DNA from: Anaerolineales bacterium
Lineage (GTDB): Bacteria; Chloroflexota; Anaerolineae; Anaerolineales; UBA11579
Reading direction: 5' to 3'
Assembly: GCA_019637805.1 (NCBI GenBank)
Contig: JAHBVB010000002.1
Coordinates: 451,981 to 515,980, forward strand
Length of the DNA stretch: 64,000 bases
In this document: in pieces, positions 1,542 through 61,727 of the stretch
Layout of the letters: every line of letters begins with the position of its first letter
Numbering within the stretch: position 1 is the stretch's first letter
Notes under the pieces: generated by a model
What the model was told of the DNA's origin: nothing
Databases searched by the model: none
Seen by the model: the letters and a program-made list of their open reading frames with translations, nothing else
Made by a program: the position numbers and the translations under genes

Positions 1542-2527
1542 TCACTGTGACCCTTTACACCAAAGACAACTGTTCACTGTGTGAAACGGCCAAGCAGGAT
1601 TTGCTGGCCCTGCAGGCCAAGATTCCGCATAATTTGGCCCTGGTCGATATTGAACAAGACCCTGAGCTGAAAGCGGCCTTTGGTACGCGTGTGCCCGTGG
1701 TACAGGCCGGTCCGTATACGGTTGAGGCGCCGTTTGACCGCCGCAAGCTGGAAGCTACGCTGGCGGCCGCCAACGACCGCCAGGAACAGATGGCCGGCGA
1801 TCCCAAGTTTGAAGCCCGCAAGGCGCGCGGCGGCCAGATCAGCGGCAGCGACCGTTTCACCGCTTGGCTCGGCCGCAGTTATATGCTTTTGCTCAACCTG
1901 CTCTTATTCCTGTACGTTGGCCTGCCTTTCCTGGCCCCGACACTGATGAATGCCGGCTACCCGCAACTGGCCCGGCCGATTTATGGCATGTATGGCGCAC
2001 TGTGCCACCAGCTGGCCTATCGCTCCTGGTTCCTCTTCGGCGAGCAGCCCTTCTACCCGCGCGCCGCGGCGGGCTTGGAAGGCTACCAGAGCTTCCAGCA
2101 AGCTACAGGGATCAACGAAGACAACCCCTCCAGTCTTTTGGAAGCGCGCCGTTTCATCGGCAACGAGCAGATGGGCTACAAAGTCGCCTATTGCGAACGC
2201 GACATCGCCATCTACGGCAGCATGCTGATATTCGGCCTGGTGTTTGCGGCCTCGGGCCGCCGTTTGCGCGCTCTGCCCTGGTGGCTTTGGGTGCTGGTGG
2301 GCATTGCACCCATCGCGGTAGACGGCTTCAGCCAGCTCTTCAGCCAAATCCCCGGTTTCAACCTGTGGGTGCACCGCGAGAGCACGCCACTTATCCGCAC
2401 CATCACCGGAGCGCTGTTTGGCCTAACTACTGCCTGGTTCGGCTTCCCCATCCTGGAAGAATCAATGGCTGAGACGCGCCTGGCTGCCGCTACCAAGCAG
2501 GCGCGCCTCAAAGGCAAATCCCGCTAG
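1538..2527 (+). CDS. Glutaredoxin-like domain fused to DUF2085 membrane domain
   Basis: This 329-residue protein starts with TTG inside the TGA of the preceding gene (4-base overlap, typical translational coupling). Residues 1-80 resemble the glutaredoxin/DUF836 type: LYTKDNCSLCETAK gives a C-x-x-C active site, and the following T-R-V-P-V-V segment contains the cis-proline. Residues 105-310 have about four membrane helices and the DUF2085 landmarks CHQLAYRSWFLFGEQ and YCERDIAIYGSMLIFG. DUF2085 has no proven function. Fusion and gene order with ccdA and tlpA suggest that the module takes part in thiol exchange at the membrane; that part is inference. Confidence 0.78.
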   Translation: MITVTLYTKDNCSLCETAKQDLLALQAKIPHNLALVDIEQDPELKAAFGTRVPVVQAGPYTVEAPFDRRKLEATLAAANDRQEQMAGDPKFEARKARGGQISGSDRFTAWLGRSYMLLLNLLLFLYVGLPFLAPTLMNAGYPQLARPIYGMYGALCHQLAYRSWFLFGEQPFYPRAAAGLEGYQSFQQATGINEDNPSSLLEARRFIGNEQMGYKVAYCERDIAIYGSMLIFGLVFAASGRRLRALPWWLWVLVGIAPIAVDGFSQLFSQIPGFNLWVHRESTPLIRTITGALFGLTTAWFGFPILEESMAETRLAAATKQARLKGKSR

Positions 2528-2532
2528 CCGTC

Positions 2533-3318
2533 ATGCCGTTTCAGACCGCTGTTGGACTGCGCTTCTTTCAATTTGACCTGTTCAAGTCCAGCGGGGTCAC
2601 TCAGGCGATCTTCACCCGCCAGGGTGGGGTGAGCCAGGCGCAGTGGACCTCGCTGAATGTGGGCGCCACCGTCGGCGATGACCCCGAGAACGTGCGCCAG
2701 AACTTGGAGCGCAGTTTTGCCGCCCTGGGCCGCCCGCGCCACTCCCTGTTCGACAGTTGGCTGGTGCACGGTACCCACGCCCTGGTGGCCGAAGACCCGC
2801 GCCCGGCCGACCAGGCCAAGCCGCCCCAGGCAGATATCCTGCTGACCAACAAACCGGATGTGACGCTTTTCATGCGCTATGCCGACTGCACGCCGATCCT
2901 GCTGGTGGACCCGCGGCGGCGTGCCGTGGCCTTGGCGCATGCCGGCTGGCGCGGCACGGTGCAGCGCGCCGCCGCCCGGGCCGTGGAAGCCATGCAAGCG
3001 CAATACGGCAGCCAGCCGGGTGATCTGCTGGCAGGCATCGGGCCTTCGATTTCTGCCCGGCACTATCAGATCGGCCCTGAAGTCGTGGACGAGGTACAGG
3101 CAGCTTTTGGCGGCCAGGCGGCGGACTTGCTGCCGCAGTATAACGAGCGCACGCATTTTGACCTGACCGCCGCCAATCAGCTCATCTTGCAGCAGGCTGG
3201 GGTGGGGCAGATAGAGCAAGCCGGGCTGTGCACCTACGCGGACTCGCAGGATTGGTTCTCCCATCGCGGCTCCGGTGGCCAAACCGGCCGCTTCGGCGCT
3301 TTGCTGGCTCTGGCATGA
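2533..3318 (+). CDS. pgeF: Purine-nucleoside phosphorylase/polyphenol oxidase family protein (YfiH/LACC1 type)
   Basis: This 261-residue protein belongs to the YfiH/PgeF family (formerly multicopper polyphenol oxidase). Known members cleave purine nucleosides by phosphorolysis or deaminate adenosine, and PgeF edits peptidoglycan precursors that carry serine. Family hallmarks are TRQGGVSQAQWTSLNVG near residue 35, the zinc-site segment RYADCTPILLVDP near 115, HAGWRGTVQRAA near 140 (His, Cys and His ligands) and GIGPSISARHYQIG near 170. The end FSHRGSGGQTGRFGALLAL is also typical. The next gene (yggS) overlaps its stop by four bases, a neighbourhood seen in many bacteria. Confidence 0.9.
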   Translation: MPFQTAVGLRFFQFDLFKSSGVTQAIFTRQGGVSQAQWTSLNVGATVGDDPENVRQNLERSFAALGRPRHSLFDSWLVHGTHALVAEDPRPADQAKPPQADILLTNKPDVTLFMRYADCTPILLVDPRRRAVALAHAGWRGTVQRAAARAVEAMQAQYGSQPGDLLAGIGPSISARHYQIGPEVVDEVQAAFGGQAADLLPQYNERTHFDLTAANQLILQQAGVGQIEQAGLCTYADSQDWFSHRGSGGQTGRFGALLALA

Positions 3319-54785: not shown

Positions 54786-56867
54786 CTAGGGAGCAGTCAA
54801 CTGATTATCGACTTCTTTGATGCCGAAATAGGCCGAGAGCAGCTGGCGCACGATCGGGCCACCGACGGAAGAGCCTTCCTTGCCGTTGTATACAAAGGCG
54901 ATCACGGCAATTTCCGGGTCATCATAGGGCGCATAGGCCAGCGTCCAGGCGTGGCTGGGCCAGTTGCCGTATTGGCAGCGTCCCTGGCTGAAGGCGGTTT
55001 CATCGCAATATTCTGCGGTGCCGGTCTTGCCGGCCACGGCTACGCCAATCGGGTTGTTGTCAAACTCCTGCTGCAGGGTACCAAATTGCACCGCCCCGCG
55101 CATGCCCTGTTGCACGGCTTCGATCACCCAAGGCTCCACCGTGACTTTCTCGCCGGTCGGCCGGCAGGCGCCGATGCCGCTGGGGTTCTCGTATTTTTCG
55201 ATCACGGCGTCGCGCGTCAAATCCCGGATGATGGTCGGCTGAAAGGGTTGGATGACATTGCCATTGCCATCCACGATCTCGCGCAGCAGGGTGGGTTTCA
55301 TCATCACGCCATCGTTGGCGATCGTGGCGGCAGACATTAGGATCTGCAGGGGGGAGGCCAATACATAGCCCTGGCCCACACTGGTGATATAGGTGTCGCC
55401 GGTGGACCAGTTCTCGCCCTGTGAGCGGCGTTTCCAAGTGGGGTCGGGGATCAGGCCGCGGGTTTCGTACGGCTGCTCGATGCCCAGGAAATCGCCATAG
55501 CCCAGGGCGCGGGCGTAGGTGCCCAGGCGGCAAATGCCCAGACCTTCCGGCACTTCCTCTTGGAAACCGCCGCCTACTTTATAGAAATACACATTGCTGG
55601 AGTTGGCGATGCCGCCAATGAAGTTCAGCTGCCCGAAGCCGGCCCGGTTCCAGTCTACGAACTCGCGGCTGCGGCCGGCCTCGCCCTCGAAGAACTGTTC
55701 ACTGACTGTGATCAAGCCGGGGGTTTGAATGAGCTGGTCCACAGACACTACGCCTTCGTTCAAGACGCCTACGGAGGTGACCAGTTTGAATACCGAGCCT
55801 ACCGGGATTTCGGCGCCTACGGCATGGTTCACCAGCGGGTTGGTGGCATCCGCCAGAAGCTGGTCATAGTAGTAAGCGGGGATGAAGCGCGCCATGCGGT
55901 TGTTCTCATAGCTGGGCCAGGACACCATGGCCAGGATCTCGCCCGTGCGCGGGTCCATGGCGATCACCGACCCGCTGGTCATTTCGATGGCGCCAATAAA
56001 GTTGTTCCACAGCTCAATGTCGCGTTTCAAGATCTGGTAGGCGGCCTGTTGCAGGCGCATATCCAGCGTCAGCACTATGTTCTGGCCCGGCTGCGCCTCG
56101 ATGGGCGGATCAATATCGCGCAGGACCTGGCCACCCACGTCCGTCTCCACTACGCGCTGACCCGGCATCCCGCGCAGGACTTCATCAAAGTACAACTCCA
56201 AACCGCCGTAGCCCACTTTGTCCCGGTTGGGCACAAAGCCCAGCGAGCGCATTTGAGGCTCTATCGCCGCCGGAATGGGGCCGAGGTAGCCGATCACCGC
56301 CGCGGTCATTTCGCCGGTAGGGTAGTCTCGTACCGGCTCAACCTGAATATCAACCCCCGGCCAATCCACAGATTTTTCTTTGATGGCCATGGCCATCTCT
56401 CGGCTTACATTGCACTGCAGCTGCACAGAGTCATAGGGGGAAAACGAGGTTTGGATGGCGATCATCTCGCGCAAACCCAGGTTGGTGCCGCAGGGGATCA
56501 GCGGTTCATCCAGCGAGCCGCGCGTCACCGGCAGGCCGGTAAGCTCGGCCAGTTCGAAGATGATCTGCTCGATCTCACCGCTGTCGCCCGGCAGGAAGGC
56601 CGGCACGGCAATGATGTTGTACGAAGCTGTGTTGCTGGCCAGCAGCACCCCGTTGCGGTCGAAGATGACGCCGCGCTGCGGGGCCAGGCTGATCACTTCG
56701 GTGCGGTTGTCATCCGCCTGGCGCAGCCAGTTGCTGTGCTCCAGGACTTGCAAATAGAACAGACGGATGAAGAACAGGAAGAAGATCAGGCCAAAGGTGA
56801 TCAGCACCGTGAGCAGCCGCCAATTCTCCAGTGAACTGCGACTGCCAGATTGCGAAGTGCTGCTCAT
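54786..56867 (-). CDS. mrdA: Penicillin-binding protein 2 (peptidoglycan transpeptidase of the elongasome)
   Basis: This 693-residue class B PBP has one N-terminal helix (about residues 18-40), a dimerisation domain (FDRNGVLLASNTASYNI near 65) and a transpeptidase domain. Active-site motifs are S-x-x-K in IPVGSVFKLVTS near 350, S-x-N in IANSSNVYFYKV near 420 and K-T-G in VAGKTGTAEY near 615. It cross-links peptidoglycan during elongation with RodA and MreBCD. Its ATG overlaps the mreD stop. Length fits PBP2. Confidence 0.93.
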   Translation of the reverse strand: MSSTSQSGSRSSLENWRLLTVLITFGLIFFLFFIRLFYLQVLEHSNWLRQADDNRTEVISLAPQRGVIFDRNGVLLASNTASYNIIAVPAFLPGDSGEIEQIIFELAELTGLPVTRGSLDEPLIPCGTNLGLREMIAIQTSFSPYDSVQLQCNVSREMAMAIKEKSVDWPGVDIQVEPVRDYPTGEMTAAVIGYLGPIPAAIEPQMRSLGFVPNRDKVGYGGLELYFDEVLRGMPGQRVVETDVGGQVLRDIDPPIEAQPGQNIVLTLDMRLQQAAYQILKRDIELWNNFIGAIEMTSGSVIAMDPRTGEILAMVSWPSYENNRMARFIPAYYYDQLLADATNPLVNHAVGAEIPVGSVFKLVTSVGVLNEGVVSVDQLIQTPGLITVSEQFFEGEAGRSREFVDWNRAGFGQLNFIGGIANSSNVYFYKVGGGFQEEVPEGLGICRLGTYARALGYGDFLGIEQPYETRGLIPDPTWKRRSQGENWSTGDTYITSVGQGYVLASPLQILMSAATIANDGVMMKPTLLREIVDGNGNVIQPFQPTIIRDLTRDAVIEKYENPSGIGACRPTGEKVTVEPWVIEAVQQGMRGAVQFGTLQQEFDNNPIGVAVAGKTGTAEYCDETAFSQGRCQYGNWPSHAWTLAYAPYDDPEIAVIAFVYNGKEGSSVGGPIVRQLLSAYFGIKEVDNQLTAP

Positions 56868-57364
56868 TCAGCTTCCTCTACGGGTGAAATTAGTTTGCTC
56901 ATCTCGTTCATTATCCCGTGCAGAGGTAAGATAAAGATTAGGTTTAGCAGCATGGTAGGGATGGTAATTAAGTTAAACGCATCGACCAGATTCAGTGGTT
57001 GGGCCGAGGCCAGCAAGTAAGTCATCGTGATTGCATGCACGGCCAAGGTGGCCAGAAGAGCGCCACTGAACAGGCTGAAGAGCTTTACCTGCCAAATGCG
57101 TTCTGACAGCAGTTGGCAGATGCCCGCTCCGGCGGCATAGCCTGCGATCAGAACCCAGTCTGGCAGTGCGCTGGCGTAGCCCACCATCAGGCCAGCCACC
57201 AACCCCCAGCGCCAGTCGGGCCGGTTACCCGGCAGCATCAACCAGGCCACCAGGACAAGTAGAACTAAATCCGGCGACCCCTGCAGCAGGGTCACGCGGG
57301 TCGCCAGGGTGATTTGCAATAGCGTGGCGGCAAGCAGCAGTAGAACGCCCGTGACGATACGCAT
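56864..57364 (-). CDS. mreD: MreD, rod-shape-determining membrane protein
   Basis: This 166-residue protein has about five helices, typical of MreD: LLLLAATLLQITLATRVTL at the start, GSPDLVLLVLVAWLML near residue 30, DWRWGLVAGLMVGYASALPD near 50. Sequence conservation in this family is low; position between mreC and mrdA decides the call. It begins four bases after the mreC stop. Confidence 0.85.
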   Translation of the reverse strand: MRIVTGVLLLLAATLLQITLATRVTLLQGSPDLVLLVLVAWLMLPGNRPDWRWGLVAGLMVGYASALPDWVLIAGYAAGAGICQLLSERIWQVKLFSLFSGALLATLAVHAITMTYLLASAQPLNLVDAFNLITIPTMLLNLIFILPLHGIMNEMSKLISPVEEAE

Positions 57365-57367
57365 GGA

Positions 57368-58207
57368 TTACGGCGAAGAGAGCAGAGGGGTCAAGTCCAC
57401 AGGTTGAAAGTTTACAATGACCAGCACAATTTCTAGGCGGGTAAAGTCCACCACCGGTTGCACGCTGGCAAGCTGAAAGAGCGCCTGGGCCTCCTGGCGA
57501 ACGTTGCTGACCTGGCCAATAAAGATGTCGCTCGGATACAGACCGCCAATGCCGGAGGTGAAGACAAGGTCACCGGGTTGGATCTGCGTATCGAGCGGGA
57601 TCAAGTCGATGCTGAGCGCGCCGGTAATGCTGCCGGTGACCACGCCGTCCATCTCGGACGGCTGCACCTGGGCGCTGACGACGGAGGCCGGGTCGGTGAT
57701 CAGCTCCACGCGTGAGGCATTGGCGGTCACTTGAGCCACGCGGCCCACCAAGCCCTGCTGAGCTACGACCGGCATGCCGCGGCGGATGCCGTCGTCCGAG
57801 CCGCGGTTGATGATGATGTAATGCAAGAAGGGGCTGGGGTCGCGGCCGATCACCGCGGCAGCCTGGTAGGTGTTTTCTGGGCGTGCGCGCGCAAAGTCCA
57901 GCAGAGCCGAAAGCAGCTCGATCTCGGCGACTTGCTGCTGGAGGGCGATGATTTGGGTTTGCAGGGTGGCATTTTCCGAGCGCAGCTCGGCATTTTCCTG
58001 GCGCAGCCGTGCAATATCTGCAGGGGCGTTGATAAAGTCTTGAATGGCTTGGAAGCGCTCAAACAGAAAGCCCTGCACGCCCAAAACAGGTTGCAGCACT
58101 CCGCTGAAGACAGGGCTCAGGTAACCGCCCAGAGCCAGCACCAGCAAGCCGGCGGCAAGCAAAACCAAGGCGATCAAGCGATAGGGACTGTCTTTTCCTG
58201 GACGCAT
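57368..58207 (-). CDS. mreC: MreC, rod-shape-determining protein
   Basis: This 279-residue protein has one N-terminal membrane helix (about 10-28), a coiled coil (about 60-105, RQENAELRSENATLQTQIIA) and an extracytoplasmic beta domain. In that domain VIGRDPSPFLHYIIINRGSD near residue 118, GMPVVAQQGLVGRV near 142 and ELITDPASVVSAQVQPS near 168 are MreC hallmarks. A TATTAT element 16 bases upstream may give a second promoter. The 91 bases to mreB hold no gene. Confidence 0.93.
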   Translation of the reverse strand: MRPGKDSPYRLIALVLLAAGLLVLALGGYLSPVFSGVLQPVLGVQGFLFERFQAIQDFINAPADIARLRQENAELRSENATLQTQIIALQQQVAEIELLSALLDFARARPENTYQAAAVIGRDPSPFLHYIIINRGSDDGIRRGMPVVAQQGLVGRVAQVTANASRVELITDPASVVSAQVQPSEMDGVVTGSITGALSIDLIPLDTQIQPGDLVFTSGIGGLYPSDIFIGQVSNVRQEAQALFQLASVQPVVDFTRLEIVLVIVNFQPVDLTPLLSSP

Positions 58208-58298
58208 AAGTGCAACAAGCTCGATAATATCCTGCCCCGCTGCGGCTTAAGTGCCGCGCCGGCGCATTCAAACACTATTAATCTGGCGGCGGAGCTGG

Positions 58299-59345
58299 TT
58301 AGTCCAGCTGCAGCAGATGATGGCGATAGGCTTCGATATCTTCTAGCACCACGCCCGCGCCGCGCGCCACGCAGGTCAGCGGATCATCCGCCACCCAGCA
58401 GTGAATGCGCAGATCCTCGCTGATGCGCTGATCCAAGCCGCGGATCAGCGCTCCACCGCCGCTCATGCAGATCCCGGCATCCATCACGTCGCCAATCATT
58501 TCGGCAGGCACTTCATCCACCGTCTCTTTGACCGCCTGCACAATGCTATCAATGATGGGCGAGAGCGCTTCGCGGATCTCGATGGACGAGATTTCCAAGG
58601 TTTCAGGCAAACCGCTGATCAGATTGCGGCCGCGTACCGAGGTAACCTTTTCCTCGGGCAGCGGGAAGGCCGAACCGATCTTCATCTTGACCTGCTCGGC
58701 GGCGCGTTCACCGATCAGCACGTTGTACTTGGTGCGGATGTACTGCAGCACCGCCCGGTCCATTTCATCTCCGGCCAGACGCAGGGACTTGTTGGCCACC
58801 ACGCCGCCCATCGAGAAGACTGTGATCTCGCTGGTGCCGCCGCCAATGTCCACGATCACCGAGCCGCCGACTTTGTCGATGGGCAGGCCGACTGCCAGGG
58901 CCGAGGCGGTGGGTTCTTCGATCAAATAGACTTCGCGAGCGCCGGCCAACAGCGCCGCATCGTTCACGGCGCGCTTTTCCACCTCGGTCACGCCGGTGGG
59001 CACGCCGATCACCACGCGGGGGCGGGGCAGCGGCACGATGCTTTGCTCGTGCGCCTTATTAATGAAGTAAGCCAGCATTTCTTCGGTGATTTCGAATTCA
59101 GCAATCACGCCGTCGCGCAGCGGGCGGACCACGATGATGTTTTTAGGGGCGCGGCCGGCCATTTCCTTGGCTTCTTCGCCTACGGCGATGGGGCGGCGCG
59201 TTTTGCGGTCTACAGTCACCCAAGAGGGCTCATTGATCACGATGCCCTTGCCGCGCACGAACACCAAGGTGTTCGCCGTGCCCAGGTCGATGCCAATGTC
59301 CAAAGAGAAGAATCCCAGGATCCAATTGAGTGGGTTAAAGGCCAT
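58299..59345 (-). CDS. mreB: MreB, rod-shape-determining actin homologue
   Basis: This 348-residue actin-fold protein has an N-terminal IDIGIDLGTANTLVFVRGKG-type phosphate loop near residue 16, VIGVPTGVTEVEKRAV near 105 and IVDIGGGTSEITVFSMGGV near 160. GGGALIRGLDQRISEDL lies near 300. MreB filaments organise the elongasome on the inner membrane. It is the first gene of the minus-strand block; a TATAGT box near 59410 on the minus strand may be its promoter. The upstream 540-base gap is shared with the divergent glmS leader. Confidence 0.95.
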   Translation of the reverse strand: MAFNPLNWILGFFSLDIGIDLGTANTLVFVRGKGIVINEPSWVTVDRKTRRPIAVGEEAKEMAGRAPKNIIVVRPLRDGVIAEFEITEEMLAYFINKAHEQSIVPLPRPRVVIGVPTGVTEVEKRAVNDAALLAGAREVYLIEEPTASALAVGLPIDKVGGSVIVDIGGGTSEITVFSMGGVVANKSLRLAGDEMDRAVLQYIRTKYNVLIGERAAEQVKMKIGSAFPLPEEKVTSVRGRNLISGLPETLEISSIEIREALSPIIDSIVQAVKETVDEVPAEMIGDVMDAGICMSGGGALIRGLDQRISEDLRIHCWVADDPLTCVARGAGVVLEDIEAYRHHLLQLD

Positions 59346-59542
59346 AAATGGTCTGCCTGGCTAGGTGTACAGAATGTCGGAGGGACGGTGCGAAATATTC
59401 ACTGAGTTGTACTATACCCTTGCGGTGTGGATTTTGCGGGCGTACTTGCCAAACAAGCAATTTTACCATGCTGGCTTCCCTTGCAGTTCTGCAAGCGATT
59501 TGGCCCTAATGGTACCCGGTGCACACTCAATTGGCTTGCAGG

Positions 59543-59548
59543 TATAAT
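59543..59548 (+). promoter_or_regulatory. -10 box of the glmS promoter
   Basis: TATAAT stands about 50 bases before the ribozyme-like leader. No good -35 is visible at the proper distance. The 340-base distance to the glmS start implies a long 5' leader. Confidence 0.45.
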
Positions 59549-59595
59549 CCGCTGGACTGGAGTTGCTTATGTAGAAGAGAGATGACTGAGGGAAT

Positions 59596-59770
59596 ACAGC
59601 GCATGGCCCGGCAATGCCGGGTGACGAGGATGAAGGTTTCTCACCTGGGTGAGACTAAGCAGCTCAAGGCTGCGAAAATCGAAGAGCCAGATGTGCCTGA
59701 TGCACGCAGTGCGACACGCACATCTGGGTAGATCAGCGGATGCCTTCCGGGAGTTCACCGCCCCCGACCA
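59596..59770 (+). ncRNA. glmS ribozyme (glucosamine-6-phosphate-activated), probable
   Basis: The leader of glmS contains the elements of the self-cleaving glmS ribozyme in order. The cleavage-site block is A-GCGC (cleavage expected between 59598 and 59599). A P2-like hairpin CCCGGC/GCCGGG covers 59607-59621. TGACGAGGATGAAGGTT (59622-59638) is near-identical to the conserved core of the Bacillus ribozyme as I remember it. AGCGGATGCCTTCCGG (59735-59750) matches the second core strand. Between the core strands about 95 bases form three extra hairpins (59639-59654, 59659-59673, 59687-59727), longer than in Bacillus. Binding of glucosamine-6-phosphate would cut the mRNA and lower GlmS. The 3' domain (P3/P4) could not be assigned by eye. 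Confidence 0.68.
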
Positions 59771-59885
59771 TTTTCCCTCCAATTTGACAAATGCCCGATA
59801 ACACCGCGAGAGCAATCTGGCGGACAGACACGGCATGGCGGCCTTATTGACGATTGGGTTGGAACACAACCCGGAGGTTTTTTGC

Positions 59886-61727
59886 ATGTGTGGAATTGTT
59901 GGCTACATCGGTGAGCAGAACGCGACTCCGATTATTTTGAACGGTCTGAAACGCTTGGAGTACCGTGGTTACGACTCGGCGGGCATTGCCGTGCTGCAAG
60001 ACGAGCGTATTGAGGTGCGCCGCGATGCCGGCAAGCTGGGCCGCCTGGTGACCCTGGTGGATAGTGAGCCCCTGGCCGGTTCGCTGGGCATTGGGCACAC
60101 GCGCTGGGCGACGCACGGCGAGCCGAATGCGCGCAATGCGCACCCGCACATGGGCGCCACCGGCGAAGTAGTGCTGGTGCACAACGGCATTGTGGAAAAC
60201 TACCTGGAGTTGAAGGACGAGCTGCAGGCGGAGGGTGTGGACTTCAAGTCTGACACCGACACCGAGATCATCGTCCATTTGGTGGAACGCTACCTCTCAC
60301 AAGATGTTTCTTTGGAGCAGGCGGCCCGCAAAGCGCTCAGCCATCTGCACGGCCATCATGGCATCGTCATGTTCAGCTCTCAGCAGCCCGACCGTATCGT
60401 GGCCGCCCGCATCGGCAATGCCGGTGGCGTGGTGGTGGGCTTTGGCGAGGGTGAGATGTTCGTTGCCTCTGACCTGCCTGCCATCCTGGAACACACGCGT
60501 GATGTGGTCTTCCTGGAATCCGGGCAGATGGCGCTGGTCACCCGTGAGGGATTGAAGATGAGCACGCTGGACGGGCAGGCGCTGGACTACAAGGTCGATA
60601 CGGTTGCCTGGGATCCGGTGGCGGCGGAGAAGGGCGAGTATCGTCACTTCATGCAGAAAGAGATCCACGAGCAGGTGCGCTCGCTGACCGACACCATCGC
60701 GGGCCGGGTGGATTTTGACAATGGGCGTATCATTCTGCCCGACTTGAACCTGGATGCGGATTCTGCCAAGAAGATCGAGAAGATCTTTATCATCGCTTGC
60801 GGCACGGCCGGCTATGCCGGTATGGTAGGCAAGACGCTCATCGAGCGCATTGCGCGCGTGCCGGTGGAATTTGATATCGCTTCGGAATTCCGCTACCGCG
60901 ACCCGCTGGTGACTGACAAGCATGTGGTGCTGGCCATCAGCCAGTCCGGCGAAACTGCCGACACCCTGGCCGCCATGGCCGAGGGCAAGGCACGCGGCGC
61001 CAAGCTGTGGTCGATCGTCAATGCGATCGGCTCACAGGCCATGCGCATTGCCGACGGCTGCATCACTATGCAGAGCGGCCCGGAAATTGGCGTGGCCTCC
61101 ACCAAGGCCTATACCGCCCCCTTGGTGGACCTGTACATGCTGGCCATCCTGTTGGGCGACCTGCGCGGCGTGCTTAGCGAGGATGACCGCCGGGCGCTGG
61201 TGGCCGAACTGCGCATGGTGCCGGAATGGGCCTCTGCCTGCCTGGAACGCGAAAGTGAAGTCATCGCCGTGGCCGAAGCGATCGTCAATATTGACCATTG
61301 CCTCTACCTGGGGCGCGGCATTAACACCGCCACGGCGTACGAGGGTGCCCTGAAGTTGAAGGAGATCTCCTACATCCATGCCGAGGGCTACCCGGCTGGC
61401 GAGATGAAGCATGGGCCGATCGCGCTGGTAGACCCGGAAATGCCGGTGATCGCCATTGCGCCGCGTGACCCGTGGTACGAGAAAATGATCAGCCAGATCG
61501 AGCAGGCCAAAGCGCGCGGCGGCAAAGTGATTGCTGTTGCCACCGAAGGCGACACGGTCATCCCCGCACTTGCCGACCATGTCTTGTGGATCCCGGATGT
61601 GCCCTGGATGCTCAGCCCGGTCTTCACCGTCATCCCACTGCAATTGCTTGCTTATCACATCGCCAGCCAGCGCGGTTTGGATGTGGACCAACCCCGCAAC
61701 CTGGCCAAGAGCGTCACGGTGGAATAG
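59886..61727 (+). CDS. glmS: Glutamine--fructose-6-phosphate aminotransferase (isomerizing)
   Basis: This 613-residue enzyme makes glucosamine-6-phosphate for cell-wall precursors. The N-terminal glutamine amidotransferase starts MCGIVGYIGEQNATP (Cys as nucleophile after Met removal), with LGIGHTRWATHGEPN near residue 70. Two SIS sugar-isomerase domains follow: VLAISQSGETADTLAAMAEG near 350 and GRGINTATAYEGALKLKEIS near 475. The end is QPRNLAKSVTVE, as in other GlmS proteins. ATG 59886 is fixed by the nucleophile and by GGAGG upstream; an earlier ATG at 59835 is rejected. A terminator follows. Confidence 0.97.
   Translation: MCGIVGYIGEQNATPIILNGLKRLEYRGYDSAGIAVLQDERIEVRRDAGKLGRLVTLVDSEPLAGSLGIGHTRWATHGEPNARNAHPHMGATGEVVLVHNGIVENYLELKDELQAEGVDFKSDTDTEIIVHLVERYLSQDVSLEQAARKALSHLHGHHGIVMFSSQQPDRIVAARIGNAGGVVVGFGEGEMFVASDLPAILEHTRDVVFLESGQMALVTREGLKMSTLDGQALDYKVDTVAWDPVAAEKGEYRHFMQKEIHEQVRSLTDTIAGRVDFDNGRIILPDLNLDADSAKKIEKIFIIACGTAGYAGMVGKTLIERIARVPVEFDIASEFRYRDPLVTDKHVVLAISQSGETADTLAAMAEGKARGAKLWSIVNAIGSQAMRIADGCITMQSGPEIGVASTKAYTAPLVDLYMLAILLGDLRGVLSEDDRRALVAELRMVPEWASACLERESEVIAVAEAIVNIDHCLYLGRGINTATAYEGALKLKEISYIHAEGYPAGEMKHGPIALVDPEMPVIAIAPRDPWYEKMISQIEQAKARGGKVIAVATEGDTVIPALADHVLWIPDVPWMLSPVFTVIPLQLLAYHIASQRGLDVDQPRNLAKSVTVE

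Follow-up and report, generated by a model that had tools for sequence, protein, structure and literature searches.

Canonical glmS ribozymes (RF00234) of B. subtilis, T. tengcongensis and Clostridia lie before glmS and combine a cleavage block with helices P1 and P2, a P2.1/P2.2 double pseudoknot, a P3/P3.1 pseudoknot and a P4 with a GNRA loop. Textbook members of the class require almost nothing upstream of the cut, and decay of the 5'-OH mRNA through RNase J is the route taken in B. subtilis. The 2011 abstract by McCown, Roth and Breaker is said to place all but two of 463 glmS ribozymes in glmS mRNAs, and reportedly mentions extra catalytic-core stems in Deinococcus-Thermus glmS variants. 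To our knowledge, the glmS ribozyme is not usually described in Chloroflexota. The RNA analyzed here lies in a window of 64,000 nucleotides from a genome of the order Anaerolineales (Chloroflexota), which agrees with the initial annotation of a glmS-type ribozyme outside Firmicutes. It shares all of the canonical elements, including the place before glmS, but adds two hairpins joined by a linker (hp1-CUAA-hp2), a third hairpin and a helix P0, and has A5 and A63 in place of the C5-G63 pair. We therefore read it as an expanded glmS ribozyme with a complete and standard catalytic core.

When 59300-60100 (801 bases) was compared with all of Rfam by cmscan, RF00234 covered 59587-59846(+) end to end (model positions 1-167 of 167; 35.7 bits, E=1.3e-6), and no other family matched at E<=5. 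The covariance model named in the initial annotation thus recognizes the RNA by E-value, but the score lies 1.3 bits under the gathering cut-off of 37, which is a bookkeeping threshold and not a structural feature. At this threshold the whole window yields only a tRNA and the glmS RNA is not listed, and a genome-wide RF00234 search of the window's own genome gave no match at E<=1e-3. The lineage model R2, built from 14 glmS-linked Anaerolineales sequences, none of them from the window's genus, scores the RNA at 115.9 bits (E=7e-33). The E-values of R2, and of the model R1 built from 13 sequences linked to glnA or glutamate synthase, are rough due to a short calibration. R2 matches at E<=1e-3 in 10 of the 11 genomes of the window's genus, the genome without a match being 76% complete, and the displayed glmS-linked loci of this genus keep the core motifs. 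The location points the same way, as the RNA occupies the 5' leader of glmS with the ATG 40 nt after the RF00234 match. Positions 59587-59846 are therefore very probably a glmS ribozyme in the glmS leader, with predicted GlcN6P-dependent self-cleavage.

The features of the locus are collected in Table 1, with core numbering as in B. subtilis (Bsu) and residue roles after PMC11602151 (in part). The cleavage block AGCGC, TGACGAGGATGAAGGTT (59622-59638) and AGCGGATGCCTTCCGG (from 59735) are found upstream of glmS where the initial annotation had placed them, and the promoter it proposed about 50 bases before the cut corresponds to a consensus TATAAT. The hairpin it called P2 is also present, but is P1. 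A-1 and G1 are 59598 and 59599, followed by C2 and G3 up to 59601. C2-C4 provide the 5' strand of P2.2, which pairs with 59736-59738, and the 5' strand of P3.1 (59758-59762) lies on the 3' loop side of P3. The conserved residues A37-G42, U53, C54, G55 and G64-A68 are all present; among them, G59629 is the active-site G42 and C38-G39 the 5' strand of P2.1, and A52-A56 correspond to 59678-59682 (PMC11602151, in part). The complementary strands of the P2/P2.1/P2.2 double pseudoknot are present as well, except that the outer P2.2 pair C5-G63 is missing. A52 and U53 belong to the cofactor pocket. In a Tte-type core, single mutants at the C5-G63 pair have large activity losses (PMC7125110, in part), which counts against the ribozyme reading. 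The 3' part, described earlier as not obvious, is found by both the RF00234 alignment and the fold, with P3, the P3.1 pseudoknot and P4 with its GNRA loop (GCAA) in place. Because P3, P3.1 and P4 are all present, the architecture is expanded and not reduced as had been suggested, and a reduced or degenerate architecture is ruled out.

Table 1. Positions of promoter, ribozyme and gene features in the window.
Feature	Position	Strand	Evidence
-10 promoter element TATAAT (putative)	59543..59548	+	consensus match only
P0 5' strand GAGGGAA, partner 59773-59779	59588..59594	+	MFE fold of 59579-59850; covaries in relatives
Cleavage block A-1, G1 C2 G3 C4 (AGCGC); predicted cut 59598 / 59599	59598..59602	+	sequence, RF00234; numbering PMC11602151 (in part)
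P1 hairpin, 59606-59612 with 59616-59622	59606..59622	+	RF00234, fold
GACGAGG = G36-G42 (Bsu)	59623..59629	+	sequence; residue roles PMC11602151 (in part)
P2 5' strand GAAGG, partner 59743-59747	59632..59636	+	RF00234, fold
hp1, inserted hairpin in J2/2.1	59639..59654	+	fold; covaries in relatives
CUAA linker between hp1 and hp2	59655..59658	+	conserved in relatives
hp2, inserted hairpin in J2/2.1	59659..59673	+	fold; covaries in relatives
GAAAAUCGA: A52, U53, C54-G55 (P2.1 3' strand), A56	59674..59682	+	numbering PMC11602151 (in part)
Third inserted hairpin, P2.1-P2.2 loop	59687..59727	+	fold; absent from most relatives
CAGCGGA = C62-A68: P2.2 3' strand and G67	59734..59740	+	RF00234, sequence
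P2 3' strand	59743..59747	+	fold
P3 hairpin, 59748-59751 with 59763-59766	59748..59766	+	RF00234, fold
P0 3' strand UUCCCUC	59773..59779	+	MFE fold; covaries in relatives
P4 hairpin, GCAA (GNRA) loop	59804..59823	+	RF00234, fold
P3.1 3' strand GGCGG, complementary to 59758-59762	59837..59841	+	sequence; covaries in sister class
Shine-Dalgarno GGAGG of glmS	59873..59877	+	sequence
glmS, glutamine--fructose-6-phosphate transaminase (isomerizing), 613 aa	59886..61727	+	TIGR01135 777 bits, cut-off 418

Related RNAs occur elsewhere in the phylum. With stricter filters, RF00234 matched 53 of 61 genomes (the window's own and 60 relatives) at E<=1; in 17 of the 61 the score exceeded the cut-off, and many genomes had two matching places. 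For 68 of the 69 listed places, tblastn and ORF reading found glmS downstream of 44, a glutamine synthetase gene downstream of 10 and a glutamate-synthase-like gene downstream of 11; L063, L064 and L068 (E 0.02-0.7) had nothing relevant downstream and were dropped. Across 400 phylum genomes, R1 matched in 114 and R2 in 111 at E<=1e-3. The union of both is 147 places, followed by glmS (124), glnA (7), a glutamate-synthase-like gene (1) or other genes (15). The last group consists of 13 places before an Ada-type gene (AraC HTH plus O6-methylguanine methyltransferase), L090 before a DegT aminotransferase, and L144 at a contig end, so that 146 of the 147 places precede glmS, glnA, a glutamate-synthase-like, an Ada-type or a sugar-aminotransferase gene. 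The hosts include cultured Bellilinea, Levilinea and Longilinea strains, with glnA leaders at L269 (Bellilinea caldifistulae GOMI-1) and L272 (Levilinea saccharolytica). The RNA at L090 (G070:C334) is a canonical-type ribozyme (R2, 143.8 bits) located before a DegT/DnrJ/EryC1 sugar aminotransferase gene (PF01041) and not before glmS.

The insertion of about 95 bases reported initially is 94 nt long, compared to 10 in the Rfam consensus, and does fold as three hairpins (-50.6 kcal/mol, z=-3.1; 1 of 200 shuffles as stable). It is of two kinds, with hp1-CUAA-hp2 (59639-59673) inserted into J2/2.1, preceded by the GGUU that follows P2 and followed by the AUCGA of P2.1, and the third hairpin filling the P2.1-P2.2 loop, which usually has about 5 nt in relatives. 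The insert is not peculiar to the window, as two of its three hairpins, hp1 and hp2, are conserved through the order Anaerolineales. A few loci, for example L004, L018 and L020, have hp1 without hp2. Both hairpins also occur in other classes of Chloroflexota (e.g., L111 and L085), while other families of the phylum keep the short canonical form among the 29 loci displayed. The additions hp1 and hp2 belong to the lineage, the further hairpin in the P2.1-P2.2 loop to the genus, and P0 to the order. In Clostridia, where 13 of 41 genomes had a match and 11 of these 13 ribozymes could be parsed, ten of the eleven have no J2/2.1 insert and L342 has a single small hairpin there. The Deinococcus-Thermus variants are likewise reported to be glmS ribozymes with extra core stems, in another phylum; our RF00234 control search matches Deinobacterium chartae. 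In the window's RNA and its relatives, the joining regions of the glmS catalytic core appear to tolerate and conserve two or more complete hairpins, and the core also accommodates a helix formed with the 5' product. At L349-L354, which lie before glmS in part of the window's genus, the inserts in J2/2.1 and the P2.1-P2.2 loop are much larger and comprise several hairpins each, while the core motifs remain intact.

Among 132 parsed glmS-linked loci, G1, C2, G3, A37-A40, G42, C54, G55 and G64-G67 are invariant. C4 and A-1 are each kept in 130, and U53 is not universal (U in 112, G in 20). Outside these counts stand 30 unparsed glmS-linked loci and two skipped loci with other downstream genes, and at least L045, L058 and L145, which are mis-anchored, are included as exceptions. 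For 21 relatives, drawn from both the glmS-linked RNAs and the sister class described below and aligned with MAFFT, RNAalifold gave 34 pairs, of which 29 had changes on both sides, and these pairs included hp1, hp2 and P0 unprompted. In 14 glmS-linked sequences, 32 of the 40 pairs in hp1, hp2, P0, P1, P2, P3 and P4 change on both sides, with 109 doubly changed cells compared to 34.8 after shuffling (0 of 500 shuffles as high) and 92.2% pairing cells compared to 73.5% shuffled and 40-58% with partners slid. Among 50 sister-class sequences, 41 of 55 pairs changed on both sides in an alignment fitted to a model for P0, P1, P2, hp1, hp2, P3 and P4, with P3.1, P2.1 and P2.2 unmodelled. In P3.1, where covariation was counted for the sister class alone, two pairs are changed on both sides in 21 and 17 sequences, and P2.1 and P2.2 are invariant there and thus uninformative on covariation. 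All of these counts are inflated by relatedness.

Hairpin-bearing folds of single sequences are common in G+C-rich leaders, and the RNA could in principle resemble the class by chance or be another known leader RNA. However, no second Rfam family appeared and the lineage model matched strongly, and with the covariation and the gene context of the phylum places this explanation is already refuted and its probability negligible. It is also highly unlikely that the RNA is a degenerate relic, i.e., a glmS ribozyme that was active in the past and that insertions have since disrupted in this lineage. The Rfam score below threshold and the further growth of the insertions within the genus would fit a relic, but compensatory changes are found throughout, inserted hairpins included, the core motifs are intact in the displayed copies of the genus, and the insert is conserved across the order.

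Helix P0 joins the nucleotides 5' of the cleavage site to the P3-P4 linker, and its 3' strand together with the next C contains CCUCC, which is complementary to the Shine-Dalgarno sequence of glmS. In 45 glmS-linked loci, own strands scored 18.09, a value reached in 0 of 2000 permutations, compared to 15.23 when partners were swapped, and in 20 sister-class loci 15.52 compared to 14.65 (4 of 2000). P0 above chance was not found in the 11 Clostridia loci (8.69 compared to 8.89 swapped; 1298 of 2000 permutations as high). The linker has CCUCC or CCUUCC in 65 of 132 glmS-linked loci (18.2 in shuffled linkers) and in 35 of 40 sister-class loci (5.1 shuffled). A Shine-Dalgarno-like GGAGG is found in the leader, 14-70 nt 5' of the cleavage site, in 76 of the 132 glmS-linked loci (11.8 shuffled), and co-occurs with the linker CCUCC (44/32/19/37, p=0.008, relatedness ignored). 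As a guess, P0 might hold the cleaved leader, which could slow its release and possibly allow re-ligation, and/or it might block the linker CCUCC from the Shine-Dalgarno sequence until cleavage. Self-ligation of the glmS ribozyme has not been reported, according to PMC11602151 (in part). Since P0 is built from the 5' cleavage product, the reversibility of this ribozyme becomes testable.

The enrichment and co-occurrence of these motifs are also what would be expected of an ordinary GlcN6P aptamer, in which the fold is kept, cleavage is lost or irrelevant, and translation is switched via P0 and pairing of CCUCC with the Shine-Dalgarno sequence. Yet the conservation of A-1 and of the nucleotides needed to cleave equals that of canonical ribozymes, and as a pure aptamer would not need them, we consider this unlikely. 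The stretch very probably encodes a self-cutting RNA switch of the glmS type with extra hairpins. By analogy with the known class, this part of the glmS mRNA's 5' leader would bind GlcN6P, the product of GlmS, as cofactor and cleave itself between A59598 and G59599. The downstream fragment with its 5'-OH end would then be degraded, probably by RNase J, so that GlmS synthesis would fall when GlcN6P is plentiful. The window's own genome does encode RNase J (582 bits against a cut-off of 400); this is shown by computation, as are the conservation of sequence and structure, the covariation and the gene context.

Anaerolineales also have a sister class, found across the order, in which AGCG[R]C replaces AGCGC and which lies before glnA, Ada-EamA-glnA operons or glutamate-synthase-like genes (e.g., L008, L033-L037, L039-L042, L047, L053-L055, L057, L058, L070-L084 and 73 of L210-L289). 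Scanning named genomes for the pattern AGCGRCTG...ACGAGGTGGAGGTT gave at least 120 stretches, with 80 loci listed. Among these listed matches, R1 confirms 73 of 80, and the 73 are followed by glnA (41), Ada (16), glutamate synthase (7), EamA (2), another gene (1) or the end of the sequence (6). The seven listed loci without an R1 match include one Anaerolineaceae locus, L230; pattern hits in Paucibacter, Dakarella, Sphingomonas and in MAGs of Archangium, Verrucomicrobiales and Clostridia had no R1 match and were treated as chance. Wherever more than 2.5 kb of sequence follows an Ada locus (13 loci), the gene order is Ada-EamA-glnA; in L234 it is EamA-glnA. Nearly the whole sister class appears to head operons for glutamine or glutamate synthesis, because glnA, Ada-EamA-glnA and glutamate synthase dominate the downstream genes. 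Methylation or export as the regulated function was rejected since glnA follows EamA in those 13 Ada loci, and genes of the N-methylglutamate pathway in place of glnA were rejected since the two GS proteins scanned pass the TIGR00653 GlnA equivalog cut-off. A separate glutamine riboswitch family was likewise rejected, as RF00234 was the sole match at E<=0.1 (in 11 of 13 sister-class loci compared with all Rfam). Genes for glutamine and nitrogen metabolism are the targets of glutamine riboswitches (glnA RNA, Downstream-peptide) and presumably also of the sister class, although the 13 loci scanned have no match to those families.

All 40 parsed sister-class loci keep G1, C2, G3, A37-G42, C54, G55, C62 and G64-A68, with U53 in 38 and A-1 in 38, the other two being mis-set anchors. 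The C4-G64 pair of P2.2 is absent from 37 of 40, which have G, A or U at position 4. When only parsed loci that no pattern had selected are compared, C occupies this position in 130 of 132 glmS-linked but in 3 of 40 glutamine/glutamate-linked loci (Fisher p=1e-31, relatedness ignored). At least L045, L058 and L145 are exceptions by anchor error. The true exceptions are L092 (canonical AGCGCA), L178 (AGCGGCC before a glmS-like gene, unparsed) and the glnA-linked L036 and L040 with U4; L153 is a further apparent exception. All 50 sister-class sequences can form the pairs C2-G66, G3-C65 and C5-G64, and R4 is without a standard partner in G64. From the sequences, the P2.2 of this class has a shifted bulge with R4 unpaired and C5 paired to G64. 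In the T. tengcongensis (Tte) ribozyme, A6C rescues C4A about 24-fold, presumably via a bulge moved inward in P2.2 (PMC7125110, in part), and a natural P2.2 with a shifted bulge can thus plausibly cleave. The engineered C4A+A6C variant has the same kind of shifted bulge, but the sister class is natural, conserved and tied to a different regulon. In the accessible part of the open-licence literature on glmS ribozymes, Chloroflexi/Anaerolineae riboswitches, glutamine synthetase and glutamate synthase (including PMC3766115 and PMC2258182), no report of it was found.

GlcN6P is a feedback inhibitor of E. coli glutamine synthetase. Through the sister class, GlcN6P presumably feeds back on glutamine synthesis in addition to glmS. 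A metabolite-dependent ribozyme would then serve a nitrogen regulon and no longer a single gene, and the supply of cell-wall amino sugars would be coupled at the RNA level to the synthesis of glutamine. That GlcN6P is the signal common to both is favored by L092 (G153:C114), where a canonical AGCGCA ribozyme precedes a glutamate-synthase-like gene (PF01645). A more doubtful possibility is that the glmS fold was duplicated into a second Anaerolineales class for glnA, Ada-EamA-glnA and glutamate synthase, with AGCG[R]C, a shifted P2.2 bulge and a freely varying position 36, and that its cofactor is another amine, e.g., glutamine, and not GlcN6P; P0 would keep the cleaved leader, and the switch might be reversible. 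If true, this would be a ribozyme class whose catalytic cofactor has been changed in nature. The window's own genome has no sister-class copy (the one match is the window's own RNA) and no glutamate-synthase relative at E<=1e-3, and R1 has no match in the flanks of its glnA (45% identity) with filters off.

Some sister-class copies have further features. Of the 13 Ada-linked copies, 11 have a P4-side extension with the conserved loop GUUUAAAAAAAC, as does one copy linked to glnA (L076-L082, L084, L086, L098, L103 and L075). The motif AA[CU][UC]GAA lies near the presumed transcript start, at most 40 nt 5' of the cleavage site, in 30 of 40 loci compared to 0.6 expected. At L241 of Longilinea arvoryzae KOME-1, the sister-class RNA is full (176.8 bits), but no clear gene follows it in the same direction. 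At L042 the glutamate-synthase-like gene is split, with ORF 724-2211 carrying the C-terminal part of PF01645 (262-319) and ORF 2168-3100 the earlier part (61-250). In the window itself, a cluster on the opposite strand (54786-59345) faces the glmS leader, and its ORFs read like a penicillin-binding protein, MreD, MreC and MreB.
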